A stretch of 35,644 bases of DNA from an uncultured Eggerthellaceae bacterium (GTDB lineage Bacteria; Actinomycetota; Coriobacteriia; Coriobacteriales; Eggerthellaceae), in contig CAMOLA010000018.1 of NCBI GenBank assembly GCA_946618265.1, positions 1 to 35,644 of the forward strand, written 5' to 3'. Numbering within the stretch: the stretch's first letter is position 1; every line of letters starts with the position of its first letter. The notes beneath the pieces were generated by a model. The model was not told the DNA's origin, made no database searches, and saw nothing but the letters and a program-made list of their open reading frames with translations. A program made the position numbers and the translations under genes. This document shows, piece after piece, positions 10,136-32,207 of the stretch.

Positions 10136-10227
10136 TGGTAGGAGCGGTGGGACTCCCGATTTTCCGAACCTTACTTGGCCGTATCTCAACTTAACCTGGT
10201 AGGAGCGGTGGGACTCCCGATTTTCCG
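10136..10227. repeat. Two 31-bp copies derived from the tRNA-Leu 3' end
   Basis: Copies at 10136-10166 and 10197-10227 are identical (TGGTAGGAGCGGTGGGACTC and 11 more bases). The first 16 bases equal the CCA end and acceptor strand of the intact tRNA-Leu gene, read on the plus strand, then diverge inside the T arm. The period is 61 bp. They look like remnants of attachment sites or of slippage at a tRNA 3' end. Confidence 0.75.
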
Positions 10228-10400
10228 CGCTGCGGAAAATCACGTGCTCCGGCTAAAGCCTCCGCACCGATTTCCTACGGACGGCCCACTGGGCCGTCCG
10301 CTTAACGGAAATCGACCTCATCGGTTCGAGTCCCAGCAACGAGCCCTGACCCCGAACCTTACTTGGCCGTATCTCAACTTAACCTGGTAGGAGCGGTGGG
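10164..10400. repeat. 49-bp direct repeat flanking a 139-bp spacer at the tRNA-Leu 3' end
   Basis: 10164-10212 and 10352-10400 match base for base (CCGAACCTTACTTGG at the start, GGAGCGGTGGG at the end). The right copy runs into the intact tRNA-Leu gene; the left copy is an orphan. The spacer holds a perfect 9-bp palindrome (10279-10299) and a T-arm-like GGTTCGAGTCCC (10323-10334), but no gene. Confidence 0.75.
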
Positions 10401-26366: not shown

Positions 26367-26441
26367 GGTCGAGTGGCGCAGCGGGAGCGCAGGTGCCTTA
26401 CAAGCACAAGGTCGGGGGTTCAAATCCCTCCTCGACCACCA
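26367..26441 (+). tRNA. tRNA-Val (anticodon TAC), integration target
   Basis: 75 nt with encoded CCA. Acceptor GGTCGAG/CTCGACC pairs perfectly. The D arm is GCGC-AGCGGGA-GCGC, the anticodon arm is GGTGC-CTTACAA-GCACA (anticodon TAC) and the T arm is GGGGG-TTCAAAT-CCCTC. The 3' part from the anticodon loop onward is the left attachment site of the integrated element, and the element rebuilt an intact tRNA on this side. Confidence 0.96.
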
Positions 26442-26442
26442 T
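26397..26442 (+). repeat. attL (46-bp direct repeat in tRNA-Val)
   Basis: Begins CTTACAAGCACAAGG in the anticodon loop, ends TCGACCACCAT just past the CCA end. Identical to 31721-31766. Confidence 0.95.
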
Positions 26443-26450
26443 GAAAGACG

Positions 26451-26483
26451 CAGGCCAGAGCTTTGTCGGCTCTGGCCTGTTTT
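26451..26483 (+). terminator. Rho-independent terminator directly after tRNA-Val, supplied by the element
   Basis: Perfect 11-bp stem CAGGCCAGAGC/GCTCTGGCCTG with a 7-nt loop, followed by TTTTCG. It ends tRNA-Val transcription and lies inside the element, 9 bp past attL. The chromosomal terminator is now beyond attR (31774-31803). Confidence 0.75.
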
Positions 26484-26499
26484 CGTTCTCGCATGGGGT

Positions 26500-26520
26500 G
26501 CGGGATTTCTTGCGGGATTT
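26500..26520 (+). repeat. Paired GCGGGATTT motifs, left arm-type site candidate
   Basis: GCGGGATTT occurs at 26500-26508 and 26512-26520, 12 bp apart, 58 bp inside attL. The same pair with the same spacing and orientation occurs near attR (31605-31625). This fits arm-type binding sites for the integrase N-terminal domain. Confidence 0.6.
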
Positions 26521-26539
26521 GTTCCCGAAATCGGGCGTT

Positions 26540-27922
26540 TTATGCGGTCTTGCGCTTCAGCTCCACGACACGCGCGGAAGGTGCAACTTGCGCTCCGCAT
26601 ATCGCCGCCATGATATCAGCGGCGGCGCGGTCGTTCGCGGGTATCGCGTGCGCGTACTGGTCGAGGGTCAGCGAAGACGAGGCATGGCCCAGGCGGTGCT
26701 GTACGGTCTTCACGTCGACGCCAGAACCGAGCAGCAGCGTGGCCGACGTGTGCCTCAGCTCGTGGAGCTTCAGGTCGTGAAGGCCGACCGAATCCCGATA
26801 ACCAGGCTTGCCCTTCTCGCCAGCCCACCACCTGTATAGGTTGGTCGGGTCGTACCAGCCCGCCACGTCCGAGCAGCAGACGGGCGTCTCGTCGGTTTGC
26901 TTGGCGGGGCCTACGAGGTTGCCGTCCTCGTCCGTCAGGGTGACGAGGTGCAGGGCCTTCGCTTGGAAGGTCTTCCACTTTCGGAGGTGTGCCATCGTGT
27001 CGGCGTCGACGTAGAGCGCGCGCACGCCAGCGCCCGTCTTGGGTTCCTTCACCTCGCATCGCTGATTGATTGTCTGCTTGATGAAGACTTGCGAGGAGTT
27101 GAAGTCGACACATCCCCACGTGAGCGCCAGCGCCTCTCCCCGCCGACAACCAGTAGCCAGCAGGATACGGACTGCCATGAGGCCGCTGAGGGCGCTCAGG
27201 CCGCGCAGGGACGAGCGCCCGAACATGTTCCCGTGCTCGCTCTGGCGCTGCTCCTTGTCGGCGAAATCCTCGTATGCCGCCAGCTCGTCGCGGTCGAGGC
27301 AGGCGCGCAGCTTCGCGGCCTCCTCCATCGTGAGCGAGCGGCGGGAGGTCACCTTGTCGACCTTGGGGGCGGCGATTGCGTTGCACGGGTTGCGGACGAT
27401 GATATCCGAATCGAGCGCGTAGTCGAAAACCCGCTTGGTCTGCTGGTAGACCTTGTGCAAGGTGGTGTTGCTACATCCGCGCTCAGCTTTCACAGCGGCC
27501 AGGGCCTTCTCAACGTCAGCCTTCTTCAGCTCGACCACGGGCTTGCCATCGAGGTGCTTAGCCATGAAGCCAAGATGACGTTCGTACTGCTTCAGTTGGT
27601 CTTGCCCGCATAGGTTGGAGGTGCGGGCCATGCCGAGCCATGCGGCCACTACGGAGGAGAAGTCGTCGCGGGCGCTCTCCACGTCTACGTGCTCGTACTG
27701 CGCGGACAGCTCCTTGCAGACCCGTCGCGCCTCTTTCAAGCTGCCAGTCACGACGCGCTGTATTTTGCGCTGACGGCGGCGCATCGTTCCGTTCTTGTCT
27801 TCGACCGTCTCATACCCGAGCGATACGACCACGCGCCATTTGTTCGGTATGGGCTGACCGTTGCGCTGCTCTTGACTGATGCTGCCAGCGCCGTAAGTCT
27901 CGCGTGCCTTCTTGCGTGCCAT
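26540..27922 (-). CDS. int: Tyrosine recombinase / integrase
   Basis: Site-specific recombinase that integrates and excises the element at tRNA-Val. 460 residues. The N-terminal part (about 1-75) holds a basic arm-binding-like domain with GAGSI and RRRQRKIQR. A SAM-like core-binding domain spans about 85-180. The catalytic domain has R260 in TGCRRGEAL, HELRH (H387, R390), H413 in RLGHASS and the nucleophile Y423 in LDQYAH, so all key residues are present. It is transcribed toward attL, and its stop is 97 bp from the tRNA end. The repressor gene lies 15 bp upstream on the same strand. It is likely functional. Confidence 0.95.
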   Translation of the reverse strand: MARKKARETYGAGSISQEQRNGQPIPNKWRVVVSLGYETVEDKNGTMRRRQRKIQRVVTGSLKEARRVCKELSAQYEHVDVESARDDFSSVVAAWLGMARTSNLCGQDQLKQYERHLGFMAKHLDGKPVVELKKADVEKALAAVKAERGCSNTTLHKVYQQTKRVFDYALDSDIIVRNPCNAIAAPKVDKVTSRRSLTMEEAAKLRACLDRDELAAYEDFADKEQRQSEHGNMFGRSSLRGLSALSGLMAVRILLATGCRRGEALALTWGCVDFNSSQVFIKQTINQRCEVKEPKTGAGVRALYVDADTMAHLRKWKTFQAKALHLVTLTDEDGNLVGPAKQTDETPVCCSDVAGWYDPTNLYRWWAGEKGKPGYRDSVGLHDLKLHELRHTSATLLLGSGVDVKTVQHRLGHASSSLTLDQYAHAIPANDRAAADIMAAICGAQVAPSARVVELKRKTA

Positions 27923-27937
27923 TGTTGCCTCCTCGTT

Positions 27938-28465
27938 CTATCGGTTCAACATGCGGGACAGCTTGAAGTCGACGAAGTCTCGAACCTCGTCTTGAATGGC
28001 CTCAATCTTGGAGAATGGGACTGTGACACTCTTGCCGTCACGGGCAATAATCATCGAATCTCGCGGTATCTTCTGCTGGTATCCGCTCTCGTGCTTTTCG
28101 CCATCGTCCCATACCGTCGTTCGCGTGAGGGTGAACCCGCACAACTCGCTGTAAGCGCCGAATCCGAGCGCAGACAAATCCCAGTCATGCGCAGCCGTTT
28201 TGGCCTCCTCTAGCTTGCGCTCCTCCTCGTTCCTGTACGGGCTATCGCCGACAAGGTACTCGACCGAGTAATCGGGCAAGACCTCGTGAATCATCGCCGC
28301 CGTCTTGTCGGTCATGGGAGCTGAGCCGTTGGCGATTGCCGACAGGAACGACTCCTTGCGCCCGATATCGGCGGCGAGTTCGCGCTGGGTCTTCCCTGTG
28401 TCCTTGTAGAGTTGCTTCAATTGTTCACCCGTTTTCGCCTTAAGTTCTGCAGTGTATTTCCGCAT
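27938..28465 (-). CDS. CI/Stl-like XRE-family repressor of the element
   Basis: 175 residues. The start is ATG at 28465 with AAGGAGGT seven bases upstream; longer in-frame starts lack this. The N-terminal XRE helix-turn-helix spans about residues 5-65 (TGKTQRELAADIGRKESFLSAIANG). The middle and C-terminal domain (about 75-175) is unfamiliar, with no Ser-Lys autoprotease signature of LexA/CI type, so control by RecA-driven cleavage is not evident. It is divergent from the xis-like operon across a 116-bp region with repeated TGACATTA motifs. In PICIs such repressors are relieved by a helper-phage protein; that is analogy only. Confidence 0.82.
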   Translation of the reverse strand: MRKYTAELKAKTGEQLKQLYKDTGKTQRELAADIGRKESFLSAIANGSAPMTDKTAAMIHEVLPDYSVEYLVGDSPYRNEEERKLEEAKTAAHDWDLSALGFGAYSELCGFTLTRTTVWDDGEKHESGYQQKIPRDSMIIARDGKSVTVPFSKIEAIQDEVRDFVDFKLSRMLNR

Positions 28466-28488
28466 GTAATGACCTCCTTGCAGCTTCA

Positions 28489-28528
28489 TGACATTAAGTT
28501 TGACTGACATTAGCTTAGGCTCTAATCT
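28489..28528 (+). promoter_or_regulatory. Promoter of the xis-rep operon with repeated operator-like motifs
   Basis: -35 TTGACT (28500-28505) and -10 TAATCT (28523-28528) are separated by exactly 17 bp. TGACATTA occurs at 28489-28496 and 28505-28512, 16 bp apart, bracketing or overlapping the -35. A related inverted GTAATGAC lies at 28466-28473, next to the repressor ribosome site. These are candidate repressor-binding sites. Confidence 0.6.
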
Positions 28529-28581
28529 TAACACCAGACCACGTGGGAGGCAAGCAGAGACGATATAAGAAGGGAGTCCCA

Positions 28582-28773
28582 ATGACAGGACAGATTAATT
28601 CCCAGGCAATGAAGGTCGATAAGGTGGCCGAATTGCTCGACGTTTCCACGAAGACGGTCTACCGCCTCGTGGCAACTGGGGAGCTTGGCTGCATCCACGT
28701 GGGGCGCGCCGTTCGCGTCACTCGCGGCCAGCTCGACGCCTACCTCGAAAAGCTGGGGGCGAACGATGAGTAA
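28582..28773 (+). CDS. Excisionase-like HTH_17 DNA-binding protein
   Basis: 63 residues, ATG at 28582 behind AAGGGAG. Nearly the whole protein is an excisionase-family/MerR-like helix-turn-helix: KVDKVAELLDVSTKTVYRLVATGEL followed by the wing HVGRAVRVTRGQLDAYL. Such proteins act as Xis or as activators. It is the first gene of the divergent operon, which fits a directionality factor; sites near attL/attR remain untested. It overlaps the next gene by 8 nt. Confidence 0.8.
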   Translation: MTGQINSQAMKVDKVAELLDVSTKTVYRLVATGELGCIHVGRAVRVTRGQLDAYLEKLGANDE

Positions 28774-29104
28774 GACCGACCTCATCGACGCGAAGCTGTG
28801 GCGCAAGCGCAACAAGGGCCTCTGGGAGCGTCGCGTCGTCGCGCCAGTCCTCGAAGACGCCGAGCGCAAGCGTCCGATTCTGCTTCAGCAGGTCTTCGAG
28901 GATATCCGCAAGCGTGACCATGTAGACGACACGGGCCAGCCCGTGCGCGTCGACAACAACCACATTGCCATCTTCGCGCGCATGCTGTGGTGCGAGCATC
29001 CAGAGGTGCGGCCTTACCTGAAGTTGCGCCGTTCCGATTGGGACGAGGCTTTCGGCATCGGCATAGGCGTCGACGGCAAGCCGCGCGAGACGGGCGGTAA
29101 GTAG
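28766..29104 (+). CDS. Unknown protein of the integrated element
   Basis: 112 residues, ATG at 28766 overlapping the xis-like stop. The protein is charged and has no TM segment, signal peptide or Cys motif. A Lys/Arg-rich N-terminus (LWRKRNKGLWERR) and aromatic residues in ARMLWCEHPEVRPYL stand out. I recognise no family. Its position between Xis-like and Rep-like proteins suggests a replication or regulatory accessory role, which is inference only. Confidence 0.6.
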   Translation: MSKTDLIDAKLWRKRNKGLWERRVVAPVLEDAERKRPILLQQVFEDIRKRDHVDDTGQPVRVDNNHIAIFARMLWCEHPEVRPYLKLRRSDWDEAFGIGIGVDGKPRETGGK

Positions 29105-29105
29105 C

Positions 29106-29816
29106 ATGGGCCGTGCGATGTTCTCCTCCGAGGTCGTGGGAACAGACGAGTTCCTAGAGCAGCTATCCGACGACGCGCAGCTCACGTACTACCGCATCGC
29201 TTCCGAGGGGACGTATGGCAAGATTATCGGTATCAAGCGCATAGTTCGGAGCTATGGGAGCAGCCTGTCGGCCCTCGATGAGCTGTACCAGAACGGGTAC
29301 TTGTTCGATTACGGCGGGGCCTGTTGGGTTCGCCATTTCTGGGTGAACAACTCCATCAAGTTCCCGAATAACGACTACGCGCTGACGATGCCCGAAATAG
29401 CGCGGGGTCAGCTCGTGACCAAGAGCAAGGGCAAGGACGGGCCGACCGTCAGGGAGTTCGGGTCTGCCTCTGGTGGAATCGGATTCGAGGGCGAGCCGTT
29501 CAAGAGCGCGTTCGCGCTCAAAGGCTTTGATAAGCCTTATGGCAGTCTTTCGGAAGGCTCTACAGACTCAGTTACAGACTCAGGCTCAGATGCAGGTGCA
29601 TGGTCAGGCCCGTATTCAGACCCGCTTTCAGAAAAAAAGACAGAGTCAGGGGAAGGGGCATGCGGGGAAGGGGAGCCGCCTCGCCGCTGCCCTAAGTGCG
29701 AGTCTCCATGTTGTGCCGTTGACCATAACGGCAGGCTCCACGTCGAGTGTATGCAATGCGGATATCAGGCGTTCATTGACAAGGCAACGGGTGTAATTGA
29801 GGAGGTGTCTCTGTGA
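29106..29816 (+). CDS. Replication-initiator-like phage protein with C-terminal zinc ribbon
   Basis: 236 residues. The N-terminal part (about 5-100) follows the pattern of phage replication-organiser winged-helix proteins: DDAQLTYYRIASEGT, then SALDELYQNGYLF and WVRHFWVNNSIKFPN. A Ser/Asp/Gly-rich flexible linker (about 145-175) is encoded by repeated CAGACTCAG-like DNA. The C-terminus has a zinc ribbon with CPKC and CMQC. I infer a role in origin recognition or replication of the element by analogy with phage O/DnaD-type proteins. No helicase or primase motif is present. ATG at 29106 or 29118 may be the start. The stop overlaps the next GTG. Confidence 0.55.
   Translation: MGRAMFSSEVVGTDEFLEQLSDDAQLTYYRIASEGTYGKIIGIKRIVRSYGSSLSALDELYQNGYLFDYGGACWVRHFWVNNSIKFPNNDYALTMPEIARGQLVTKSKGKDGPTVREFGSASGGIGFEGEPFKSAFALKGFDKPYGSLSEGSTDSVTDSGSDAGAWSGPYSDPLSEKKTESGEGACGEGEPPRRCPKCESPCCAVDHNGRLHVECMQCGYQAFIDKATGVIEEVSL
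29521..29655 (+). repeat. Iteron-like repeats inside the initiator-like gene
   Basis: A perfect hairpin AAGGCTT-TGAT-AAGCCTT (29521-29538) precedes TACAGACTCAG at 29561-29571 and 29573-29583, 12 bp apart. Many further TCAGA/CAGA units run to 29648, with an A-run (AAAAAAA) at about 29632-29638. It encodes the linker of the protein above and may also be a replication origin. Confidence 0.45.
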
Positions 29817-30079
29817 ACCGCGAGGAGCAGTACCAGACGACCTTGGAGCGCAATATCGCCGCCGAACTCGACGACTCCTCCACGCTCTGCCCTAGGTGCG
29901 GCCAGCGGTACGTCGTGCCGACCACGGCGGCGGGCCAGAGGGGCCTCTGCGGCGCATGCTGGTATCGCGTTCTCAGGGATGCTACGGAGGCCACGGACGC
30001 CGAGGAGAGCGCGCGGAGAGACTACGACGCAGCCCGTGCGCGCCGTAGCCGCGAGCGTCGGAAGGGGAAGGCATGTTGA
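29813..30079 (+). CDS. Small zinc-finger protein of the element
   Basis: 88 residues from GTG at 29813, overlapping the previous stop as GTGA. A four-Cys zinc ribbon (C26, C29, C46, C49; CPRC and CGAC) is followed by a very charged helix rich in Arg, Ala, Asp and Glu. Possibly a regulator or nucleic-acid-binding partner. I do not recognise a family. It overlaps the following gene by 7 nt. Confidence 0.6.
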   Translation: MNREEQYQTTLERNIAAELDDSSTLCPRCGQRYVVPTTAAGQRGLCGACWYRVLRDATEATDAEESARRDYDAARARRSRERRKGKAC

Positions 30080-30633
30080 CCGCAAACGTCCGCGATTGTC
30101 CGCCAGACGGGCTTACAACGAGGCAGCACCTCGCAATCGCCGCTCTGGCGTCTGGCGAAACGCATGCGGGAGCCGCCGAGGCGGCGCGCGTGTCCCCTCG
30201 GACGTTGCGTCGGTGGCTTGCCCGCGAGGACTTCCAGCAGGCGCTCAGGCGGGCCGTGGAGGGCGTTCTGGACGATGCTCTGGTCATGTTGAAAGTGAGC
30301 ACGCCGAGGGCCATCACGGCGCTGCTGGACGTGGCGGAGAACGGCAAGAGCGATGCGGCGCGGGCTTCGGCGGCGGGAAAACTGCTGGACGACAACCTCC
30401 GCCTGTGGGGGGATGCGGTGCGGGGCCTTCCCGCTGGCCCAGTGCCGACGTTCATATACGAGCCGAACGGGCGGGCGGGGCCTCAGATTGTCTTGGGCGT
30501 GACGCCGAAGCGGTACGTCCCGCCAATTTCCCAAGAGGCAAGGGATGAGGTCGACCGCCTGCTGTTCGGCGGAGACGAAGCAGAAGACGACAAGAACGAA
30601 GGGAACGAAGATGGGCAAGAAATCGAAGCCTAA
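30073..30633 (+). CDS. Phage-type HTH protein, terminase small subunit-like
   Basis: 186 residues, ATG at 30073. The N-terminal helix-turn-helix (about 12-55, TTRQHLAIAALASGETHAG then VSPRTLRRWLAREDFQQAL) is followed by a long helical region (about 55-115, with DDALVMLKVSTPRAITALLD and the repeat-like ARASAAGKLLDDNLRL). This architecture is that of phage helix-turn-helix proteins of the phBC6A51 type and of small terminase subunits, which recognise packaging DNA. The C-terminal part (PVPTFIYEPNGRAG on) is proline-rich and ends acidic. No large terminase is present, as expected if a helper phage provides it. A transcriptional role is the alternative. Confidence 0.55.
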   Translation: MLTANVRDCPPDGLTTRQHLAIAALASGETHAGAAEAARVSPRTLRRWLAREDFQQALRRAVEGVLDDALVMLKVSTPRAITALLDVAENGKSDAARASAAGKLLDDNLRLWGDAVRGLPAGPVPTFIYEPNGRAGPQIVLGVTPKRYVPPISQEARDEVDRLLFGGDEAEDDKNEGNEDGQEIEA

Positions 30634-30838
30634 GAAGGCAGTCAAGGTGAAGGTGACGAAACGCGAGTACGACGAGAGCGCGGCGTGCGCGGCCCAGTTG
30701 GCGGCGTGGGCGTGCGCGGCGTTCGACATGGAGCCGACCGCCGAGAACATGGCGTGCCTGTACCGCCTCGCATGGGGCCGCGCAGGCGAGCACGTGGCTA
30801 TGACGGAGTTCGTCAAGAACCCGTTCGGCAAGCAGTAG
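30611..30838 (+). CDS. Small basic unknown protein of the element
   Basis: 75 residues from ATG at 30611, with GAAGGGAACGAAG upstream and a 23-nt overlap with the TerS-like gene. A Lys-rich N-terminus (about 1-18) is followed by an Ala-rich helical part with three Cys. No recognised family. Confidence 0.5.
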   Translation: MGKKSKPKKAVKVKVTKREYDESAACAAQLAAWACAAFDMEPTAENMACLYRLAWGRAGEHVAMTEFVKNPFGKQ

Positions 30839-30860
30839 GAAACGACAGGAAGGATTGAAG

Positions 30861-31043
30861 ATGATGGATTTCAATGTCGCGGATGCCGCGAAGGGAATGG
30901 ACGATGCAGAGTTGGCGGCGAGCATCGCGGCCATGAGGGCCGAGCAGCAGCGGAGGGCGGCGATTCCCGCCGACAAGCCCGACCCCGAAATCACGGCGAT
31001 GCTGCAAGAGCGTCACGCCGAGTTTTACGGCGTGGCCGAATAG
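30861..31043 (+). CDS. Small acidic helical unknown protein of the element
   Basis: 60 residues from ATG at 30861, preceded by AGGAAGG. It is predicted helical, with alternating Ala/Glu/Arg (LAASIAAMRAEQQRRAA). An in-frame start two codons earlier (TTG) is possible. No recognised family. Confidence 0.5.
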   Translation: MMDFNVADAAKGMDDAELAASIAAMRAEQQRRAAIPADKPDPEITAMLQERHAEFYGVAE

Positions 31044-31056
31044 GACGGGGGACAAG

Positions 31057-31380
31057 ATGAAGGACGTGAAGGCTATGAGCGACGCCGACCTGACGGCGCT
31101 GATTGAACAAGCCGACCTCGTGACCGCTGCTCGCGAGGAGATTAAGCGTCGGCGCTCCAACGTAGTGACGGAGCCGACGGCGAGCATCAGGATAACGACG
31201 GATGCCACCTGCCCGTCGTGCGGGAAGCGTGACGCTGTGCTCAGCACGAAAACGCTGTACGCCAACGACATGTTGGGGAAGGACGGCAAGCCGCCTGTAG
31301 GCACGTTGGCATATTGCAGTTGCGGCGCGCGCTACAACGCAGGGACGGGCGAGCACGTCGGACGGGCGTACACCTACTAG
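31057..31380 (+). CDS. Small protein with partial zinc ribbon, last gene of the element
   Basis: 107 residues, ATG at 31057 behind GGGGGAC. An N-terminal helix (about 6-35) precedes a beta-rich part with CPSC (about 50-53) and a second Cys cluster YCSCG (about 89-92), probably a degenerate zinc ribbon. It resembles viral or transcription-related ribbons only in general. It is followed by two very stable hairpins. Confidence 0.55.
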   Translation: MKDVKAMSDADLTALIEQADLVTAAREEIKRRRSNVVTEPTASIRITTDATCPSCGKRDAVLSTKTLYANDMLGKDGKPPVGTLAYCSCGARYNAGTGEHVGRAYTY

Positions 31381-31405
31381 GGCGTGACTCGCACGCTAGG
31401 ATGCA

Positions 31406-31440
31406 ATCGGGGCGCTGGCCGTGCCATCCAGCGCCCCGAT
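31406..31440 (+). terminator. Strong hairpin after the last element gene
   Basis: 13-bp perfect stem ATCGGGGCGCTGG/CCAGCGCCCCGAT with a 9-nt loop, 26 nt after the stop codon. The tail ATTCAGTT is only weakly T-rich, so termination is plausible but not certain. Confidence 0.5.
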
Positions 31441-31449
31441 ATTCAGTTG

Positions 31450-31483
31450 GAGGCCCCCGCTGCCGAGAGTCAGCGGGGGCCTC
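31450..31483 (+). terminator. Second strong hairpin in tandem
   Basis: 13-bp perfect stem GAGGCCCCCGCTG/CAGCGGGGGCCTC with an 8-nt loop, 9 nt after the first hairpin, with no T-tract. It could be a second terminator or a structured site of another kind. Confidence 0.4.
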
Positions 31484-31604
31484 GCTCTGAAAGGGTTCCC
31501 CGAAGGGGAGGACGATTAGGTGCGCCCGCATCCTACGGGCGCATGGTCAGGGTAGCGCCTCGGTCACGGGGCAGACCTCGGAGTCGTACCGTCGACCCTG
31601 AAGC

Positions 31605-31625
31605 GCGGGATTTTGCGCGGGATTT
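31605..31625 (+). repeat. Paired GCGGGATTT motifs, right arm-type site candidate
   Basis: Copies at 31605-31613 and 31617-31625, 12 bp apart, 95 bp inside attR. Same sequence, spacing and orientation as the left pair (26500-26520). Confidence 0.6.
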
Positions 31626-31720
31626 CTGCGCGTCCACAGCTGACAAAAGCAGACCCCAAGAGACAAGTCATCCGAGATAAGAGGCCACATCAGAACACGC
31701 CAGTCATACAGCATTTGGAG

Positions 31721-31766
31721 CTTACAAGCACAAGGTCGGGGGTTCAAATCCCTCCTCGACCACCAT
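31721..31766 (+). repeat. attR (46-bp direct repeat)
   Basis: Identical to attL at 26397-26442, without the 5' half of the tRNA. Followed by the chromosomal terminator that originally belonged to tRNA-Val. Confidence 0.95.
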
Positions 31767-32056
31767 AAAATCCAAGGTCCCAACAACGGGGCCTTTTCTT
31801 TTCCATGGACGGTGCACGATTTGAACCCCGCGAGAGTTCGACAACCGACAGGTTGTCGAAGCCCGAGCACGGCGACAGCCGAGCGCAGGGCAGAATTCGC
31901 GCAGCGAATTCCCAAATCCCTCCTCGACCACCATGAAATCCAAGGTCCCAACAACGGGGCCTTTTCTTTTCCATGGACGGTGCACGATTTGAACCCCGCG
32001 AGAGTTCGACAACCGACAGGTTGTCGAAGCCCGAGCACGGCGACAGCCGAGCGCAG
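31746..32056. repeat. Tandem duplication of the tRNA-Val tail and downstream flank, period 168 bp
   Basis: 31746-31888 and 31914-32056 (143 bp each) match with a single difference (A/G in the base after ACCAT). Each copy starts with the last 24 bases of tRNA-Val (AAATCCCTCCTCGACCACCA), followed by its terminator and a stretch containing the 10-bp hairpin TTCGACAACC/GGTTGTCGAA. A 25-bp segment (31889-31913) with GAATTCGC/GCGAATTC separates them. The second copy carries a further partial attachment-site core. Confidence 0.85.
31774..31803 (+). terminator. Original tRNA-Val terminator, displaced by the element
   Basis: AAGGTCCC/GGGGCCTT stem (one G-T pair), 6-nt loop, then TTTCTTTT. Directly after attR; repeated with the tandem duplication at 31942-31971. 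Confidence 0.65.
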
Positions 32057-32069
32057 AGCACGCTCGCGT

Positions 32070-32096
32070 CATAAAAAGGGACTGTCCCTTTTTATG
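32070..32096. repeat. Perfect 13-bp palindrome
   Basis: CATAAAAAGGGAC/GTCCCTTTTTATG around a single T. It could act as a bidirectional terminator (T-runs on both strands). Similar AAAGGGAC palindromes occur as dispersed intergenic repeats in other bacteria. Confidence 0.6.
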
Positions 32097-32207
32097 CGCT
32101 GGGGGCCTGTGCGTGCGGGACAGGGCCGCTTCGCCCTGCGTACAATAATCATGACGGCAGCTTCAACGCCGCGACTACTTGCAAAAACCGAAAGGGGATG
32201 CGATACG

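Follow-up and report, generated by a model that had tools for sequence, protein, structure and literature searches.

Both gene transfer and the balance between phages and their hosts are shaped by phage satellites, among which the SaPIs are about 15 kb long. Here we consider an element in the interior of a 35,644-nt stretch of DNA from an uncultured, gut-type Eggerthellaceae bacterium (contig CAMOLA010000018.1, assembly GCA_946618265.1; the whole stretch is called the window), which is probably a phage satellite of minimal size, with the layout of the phage-inducible chromosomal islands (PICIs) of Gram-positive bacteria but much smaller. The accessible part of PMC6092414 defines PICIs by attachment (att) sites and exclusive genes, by induction that depends on a phage, by origin layout, and by interference and packaging. 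The same part of that source gives PICIs and SaPIs a divergent, repressor-controlled layout, their own integrase (int), excisionase (xis) and replication genes, a terminase small subunit (TerS) in some members and packaging by a helper, a description that the window element resembles. Judged by its sequence, it has a specific att site, int, xis, a divergent CI-like layout and a TerS-like gene, with no tail, lysis or full capsid set recognised. It differs from the Gram-positive PICIs and SaPIs in size and in having no recognised primase or capsid-redirecting gene.

The Javan satellites of Streptococcus (PMC6813308, accessible part; Javan328 is MK448433.1) likewise have the integrase and regulators on one strand, a divergent regulator, a replication gene, small late genes and, near the end, a TerS of the same family, with no annotated structural gene. 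They belong to another host class and are longer (8.2-14.7 kb in the records shown, against 5.3 kb for the window element), and they have a RepA helicase where the window element, which lies at tRNA-Val, encodes a DnaD-like protein. Members of the TerS family match Streptococcus satellite phages, and the CI-like repressor matches a DNA-binding protein of Javan328 (33% over 73 aa, 1.6e-6); orf4, the marker gene of the element family, was not found in Javan328, and none of the window element's proteins matched its repA open reading frame (ORF) at E 1. The PICMIs of Vibrionaceae resemble the element in carrying, at about 6 kb, an integrase, an AlpA-type excisionase and one replication gene, with no capsid remodelling, and PICMI115, of roughly 6 kb, is packed as a concatemer of 8 copies per head (PMC10803314, accessible part). 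PICMIs, however, lie next to fis and encode a primase, whereas the window element lies in tRNA-Val and has the DnaD-like protein and no primase family among its ten proteins; the accessible part of PMC10803314 makes no mention of TerS, whereas the window element has a TerS-like protein. Conjugative or mobilisable elements, including actinomycete integrative and conjugative elements (AICEs), carry a relaxase or an FtsK-type protein, and neither was recognised here. Predicted Actinomycetota PICIs are mentioned in the accessible part of PMC10690885, and text searches, with most subscription literature outside their coverage, found no paper describing satellites of Coriobacteriia.

Precise ends in an intact tRNA-Val(TAC) gene

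The element is bounded by two identical 46-bp direct repeats, which occur exactly twice in the window and whose neighbouring bases diverge on both sides. An exact 46-mer dismisses chance, and the repeats fix both ends as a preliminary description of this DNA had proposed. The left copy, attL, consists of positions 31-75 of tRNA-Val(TAC) plus one base and lies, again as described, within a tRNA gene that ARAGORN finds intact. The start-to-start distance of the copies gives a predicted circle of 5,324 bp; the interior holds ten ORFs and is 89% coding, with a G+C content of 0.617 against 0.625 and 0.619 in the flanks.

The host flanks from either side, placed around a single 46-bp core, give a predicted attB, which aligns through the junction at three of the 16 loci searched: L004 (85% over 377 columns) and L002 (84% over 193), both from Eggerthellaceae metagenome-assembled genomes (MAGs), and L003 (80% over 347), from a Coriobacteriaceae MAG. 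At the remaining loci the alignment extends only a shorter way beyond the tRNA, or falls into separate pieces. The genome of L004, G004 (MAG UBA3686), is the closest DNA to the window's right side (85% over 866 bases), and the 5.3-kb DNA itself was not met with a second time. Two observations had been named in advance as speaking against such an element: related strains with the same 5.3-kb DNA and no empty tRNA-Val site, and repeats flanking unrelated lengths of DNA. The three loci above are empty sites, and the other lengths encountered at this tRNA-Val, 5,456 bp in L039 and 3,126 bp in L045, belong to different elements. The latter (L045:7713-10886), a 3.1-kb segment in the same tRNA-Val(TAC) between att repeats of 48 bp, has no integrase among its gene calls and is perhaps a non-autonomous relative.

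The att repeats, the intact tRNA and the empty sites in relatives show that the integrase inserts a circle of 5,324 bp in tRNA-Val(TAC), within its 3' half, and restores the tRNA. The complete catalytic set claimed for this enzyme could be located as motif residues R260, K295, H387-x-x-R390, H413 and Y423, which we take to have the catalytic roles. Its best near-full-length relatives are 43-58% identical, and it shares 53-58% identity with integrases adjoining tRNA-Ala (L076-L078); an integrase pattern search of genome contigs and viral contigs returned no locus.

Each end has on its inner side a pair of the repeat GCGGGATTT, at a distance of 57 bp on the attL side and 95 bp on the attR side. 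This repeat has five matches in the 35.6-kb window, four of them at the element ends (0.55 expected window-wide). At least three 9-mers are common to the two inner ends in 18 of the 21 delimited elements (window included), above the level of shuffled ends (p <=0.027; 300 shuffles per element, preserving base composition only), and the shared 9-mers are often paired, 11-12 bp apart. The inner ends of the other three, L045, L127 and L140, share no 9-mers, and L126 and L128 are not significant by a second 9-mer measure (0.157 and 0.180). The paired GCGGGATTT repeats are read as putative integrase arm-type sites.

If the island were immobile and had been domesticated because it benefits the host, for instance by superinfection exclusion, this would suit the small unassigned ORFs downstream of TerS, and PICMI satellites are described as carrying defence genes (PMC10803314, accessible part). 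The integrase with its catalytic motifs, the end repeats and the empty sites in relatives argue against it, and PADLOC, run on 8 proteins, gave no clear defence family, only helix-turn-helix (HTH)-type matches to the repressor; we consider such an island very improbable.

The TerS-like protein and a proposed satellite cycle

One product had been described as a phage-type HTH protein. The protein is better classed as TerS-like by its PHROG profile (Table 1), its predicted fold and the neighbouring terminase large subunit (TerL) gene of a relative. The best structural matches of the predicted fold are PDB 2ao9, 2cmp, 6w7t and 7joq, with modest scores. These phBC6A51/TerS fold proteins have the HTH in common with it and, in 2ao9, 6w7t and 7joq, the long helices that then follow; they differ in sequence (13-16% identity), and some 70 residues at the C-terminal end of the window's protein have a poor prediction and fall outside the alignment. 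A TerS profile search of PDB sequences gave nothing significant. The relative lies directly upstream of TerL in L208 (MT836267.1), an unannotated fecal phage record of 11.5 kb with a terminal repeat, an integrase and TerS-TerL, probably circular. In L207 (MT837714.1), a 6.3-kb piece of unannotated fecal phage, a sigma-factor-like gene precedes TerS.

In 396 genomes of the class (family and class counts are those of G004, taken as Eggerthellaceae and Coriobacteriia), all five strong matches to this type of TerS lie 1.1-1.3 kb from orf4, start to start, a count that omits six weak matches (E 4.8e-5 to 9.3e-4), one of which, in G029, adjoins orf4. In a large protein database, where orf4 appears in 39 of 7,072 scored candidates, six TerS-orf4 pairs have an equal longest contig (e.g. 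5,380 and 5,276 bases), which suggests that they share contigs.

Pfam, PHROGs and NCBIfam scans of the ten proteins recognised no structural, tail or lysis gene, no full capsid set, no TerL, and no relaxase, FtsK-type transfer or conjugation family, in agreement with the preliminary description, which had noted the absence of structural, lysis and conjugation genes. It had also called the element autonomous-looking, a view that we do not retain because a TerS-like gene without TerL points to dependence on a helper phage. The proposed CI-like repressor and Xis-like protein are supported by their profile matches (phrog_8; PF12728, TIGR01764 and phrog_66), and an initiator-like gene is indeed present, to be specified as DnaD-like (phrog_5708 and phrog_8489). 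The integrase and CI-like genes lie on the minus strand and xis through orf10 on the plus strand, divergently.

With this layout, the CI-like repressor would silence the rightward genes and be relieved by phage infection or prophage induction. Xis would shift the integrase to excision via the paired arm sites at both ends, and the DnaD-like protein would load the helicase, the circle replicating to concatemers. The element's TerS would recruit the helper's TerL and the element's own DNA would be packed, probably as several copies per full-sized capsid. A 5-kb satellite with TerS and without TerL would offer a small natural system for TerS-only redirection of the motor and for the minimal gene need.

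Related elements across the Coriobacteriia

Among 35 distinct orf4 loci examined, a subset of the orf4 matches in the class, 20 (window included) could be delimited, with the 3' end of a tRNA gene and a 28-95-bp direct repeat as their boundaries. These delimited elements span 4,243-7,353 bp (median 5,390) and target seven kinds of tRNA (Val, Thr, Phe, Arg, Pro, Lys and Leu). Nine of the 20 are shorter than the window's, so that exceptionally small size, which the element had been credited with as "among the smallest", is rejected as a distinction.

The sister element L039 lies in the same tRNA-Val and keeps the order xis-orf4-dnaD-zn-TerS-small ORF; the five products from orf4 onwards are 26-50% identical to those of the window, the integrase only 23-24%. 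Because L039 keeps the gene order with a distant integrase, while the window integrase is closer to integrases beside tRNA-Ala, exchange seems to take place between an integration module and a replication-packaging module, as in satellites and phages. Decay of a larger temperate phage, with early genes and terS surviving, would account for the int-CI-xis-rep order, which is that of a phage early region, and for TerS as a phage gene. It sits badly with exact att at both ends and ten open genes at 89% coding, and neither the compact order recurring in L039 nor the clustering of the 20 delimited elements at 4.2-7.4 kb in seven tRNA kinds is expected from decay; a decayed prophage is scarcely credible.

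The window's type of TerS occurs in seven of the 35 orf4 loci (window, L039, L122, L123, L124, L125 and L133), and a second type (phrog_1595/phrog_51), with no mutual match in searches, in four (L126, L134, L165 and L166). The second type has relatives in phages whose annotation is terminase small subunit, the similarity covering no more than half of its length, and one relative stands directly before TerL in the IMG/VR contig L175, the sole viral-contig match obtained. A phrog_2412 protein is present in four loci (L041, L135, L137 and L168); the DUF5681/phrog_2412 proteins of these loci and L076 were not counted as TerS, because PHROGs assigns them no function. In L083 and L132, primases replace the DnaD-like protein in orf4 elements. 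On balance we lean slightly towards an undescribed satellite family of the Coriobacteriia, with elements of 4-7 kb at many tRNA 3' ends, a shared orf4 and paired arm sites, in which TerS would be an exchangeable cassette, of at least two families, that chooses the helper terminase. Few satellites that encode TerS would be smaller than the members of such a family, and multi-copy concatemer packing would be required.

Two results weigh against a satellite: 20 of the 35 orf4 loci have neither type of TerS nor a phrog_2412 protein, and among the best 120 of 688 database relatives of the TerS-like HTH protein no name says terminase, the names including transposase-like, regulator and hypothetical. 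Both lend support to an integrative plasmid-like element that hitchhikes by cryptic oriT mobilisation through conjugation, natural uptake or plain transduction, whose TerS-like protein would be a regulator or a partition-type DNA-binder, and precise integration and an initiator-like gene of its own would fit as well. This explanation is nevertheless unlikely in view of the missing relaxase and conjugation families in the scans above, an initiator with no match to plasmids at E 0.1, the HTH relative before TerL in L208, with others in satellite phages, and the second TerS family in sister elements. A minimal phage satellite remains the preferred reading.

Proteins of ~180-212 aa lie near TerS in several loci (L123:8193-8831, L133:12018-12641, L126:9935-10483 and L044:7875-8513). 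Those of L123, L133 and L126 have no PHROG match at 0.01, and at a guess these proteins are candidates for helper interference or capsid functions. At tRNA-Val(GAC), a relative (L090:315-1598, minus strand) with a related integrase (46%) has a TerL gene on the same contig and is possibly a capsid-encoding satellite or phage.

Feature coordinates and tRNA-adjacent structured units

Table 1. Features of the element and its target gene, in window positions.
Feature	Positions	Strand	Evidence
tRNA-Val(TAC), target gene, intact	26367..26441	+	ARAGORN; Rfam RF00005 2e-13
attL core, 46 bp	26397..26442	+	exact repeat
Left GCGGGATTT repeat pair, 12 bp apart	26500..26520	+	window motif count, shared 9-mers
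Tyrosine integrase, 460 aa	26540..27922	-	PF00589 2.7e-17; phrog_1 2.8e-54
CI-like HTH repressor, 175 aa	27938..28465	-	phrog_8 2.9e-10
Divergent regulatory region, element's lowest G+C; putative promoter/operator	28466..28581	.	0.44 G+C at 28400-28599
Excisionase / AlpA-type HTH (HTH_17), 63 aa	28582..28773	+	PF12728 2.1e-13; TIGR01764 2.3e-12; phrog_66 6.9e-9
orf4, marker gene of element family, 112 aa	28766..29104	+	in 56/396 genomes of class
DnaD-like helicase loader / replication initiator, C-terminal Cys motif, 236 aa	29106..29816	+	phrog_5708 6.8e-7; phrog_8489 1.4e-4
Zinc-ribbon-like protein (zn), 88 aa	29813..30079	+	weak profile matches only; L039 relative 39-41%
TerS-like protein, 186 aa	30073..30633	+	phrog_2538 1.5e-9 and four weaker TerS families
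Small ORF, 75 aa	30611..30838	+	no significant family (Pfam, PHROGs, NCBIfam)
Small ORF, 60 aa	30861..31043	+	50% identical counterpart in sister element L039
Small ORF with Cys pairs, 107 aa	31057..31380	+	no significant family (Pfam, PHROGs, NCBIfam)
Two hairpins after last gene, likely terminator	31406..31491	+	inverted repeats I25, I6
Right GCGGGATTT repeat pair, 12 bp apart	31605..31625	+	window motif count, shared 9-mers
attR core, 46 bp	31721..31766	+	exact repeat

The AF2 model of orf4 has a pLDDT of 88, and its fold gave no useful PDB match, which is no proof of a new fold. Relatives of the DnaD-like protein in L039 and L126 match the same PHROG families, up to 3.6e-15 and 1.1e-11, and a PDB sequence search with the window protein gave nothing significant. 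A search of the rep gene for iterons, as in an origin of that type, showed no hexamer standing out as enriched.

Right of attR lies a 168-nt unit (31766-31933, plus strand) that ends in a copy of the tRNA's last 20-21 nt, followed by a second, altered unit (31978-32101, plus strand) without the tRNA-tail copy. The predicted fold of the 168-nt unit (z -5.36) consists of a hairpin and of a multi-branched domain with CCA at its end. Among nine units from tRNA-Val and tRNA-Phe loci, 12 of 42 pairs show both-sided changes, a number reached in 0/500 shuffles, while slid controls give at most 7; the count of additional pair types is unremarkable (86/500), and the alignment puts the closing stem out of register between the tRNA-Val and tRNA-Phe groups. 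A covariance model finds a match after tRNA-Leu in the window (10197-10341, minus strand, E 1.5e-4) and matches 57 of 119 family genomes at E 0.001, many of the weaker matches covering the middle hairpins only and perhaps being due to chance. At the 30 loci of the best unit matches, a tRNA is present in 26 and its last 18-21 nt are repeated downstream in 24. This repeat stands at 169-183 nt in 23 of the 24, after Val, Phe, Leu, Arg, Ser, Ala and Trp tRNAs, and at 250 nt after tRNA-Met.

Structured units of ~170 nt are also found in L003, L004, L015, L039, L137 and L166. Their presence in empty sites means that they are not part of the element, and the view of the 168-bp tandem repeat as a relic of older insertions was rejected on the same ground. 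No Rfam family fits them and a literature text search on such tRNA-adjacent repeats returned nothing relevant; they resemble the E. coli tyrT/rtT repeats. A short palindrome at 32067-32096 of the window has many near-identical copies in G004 and is a dispersed repeat.

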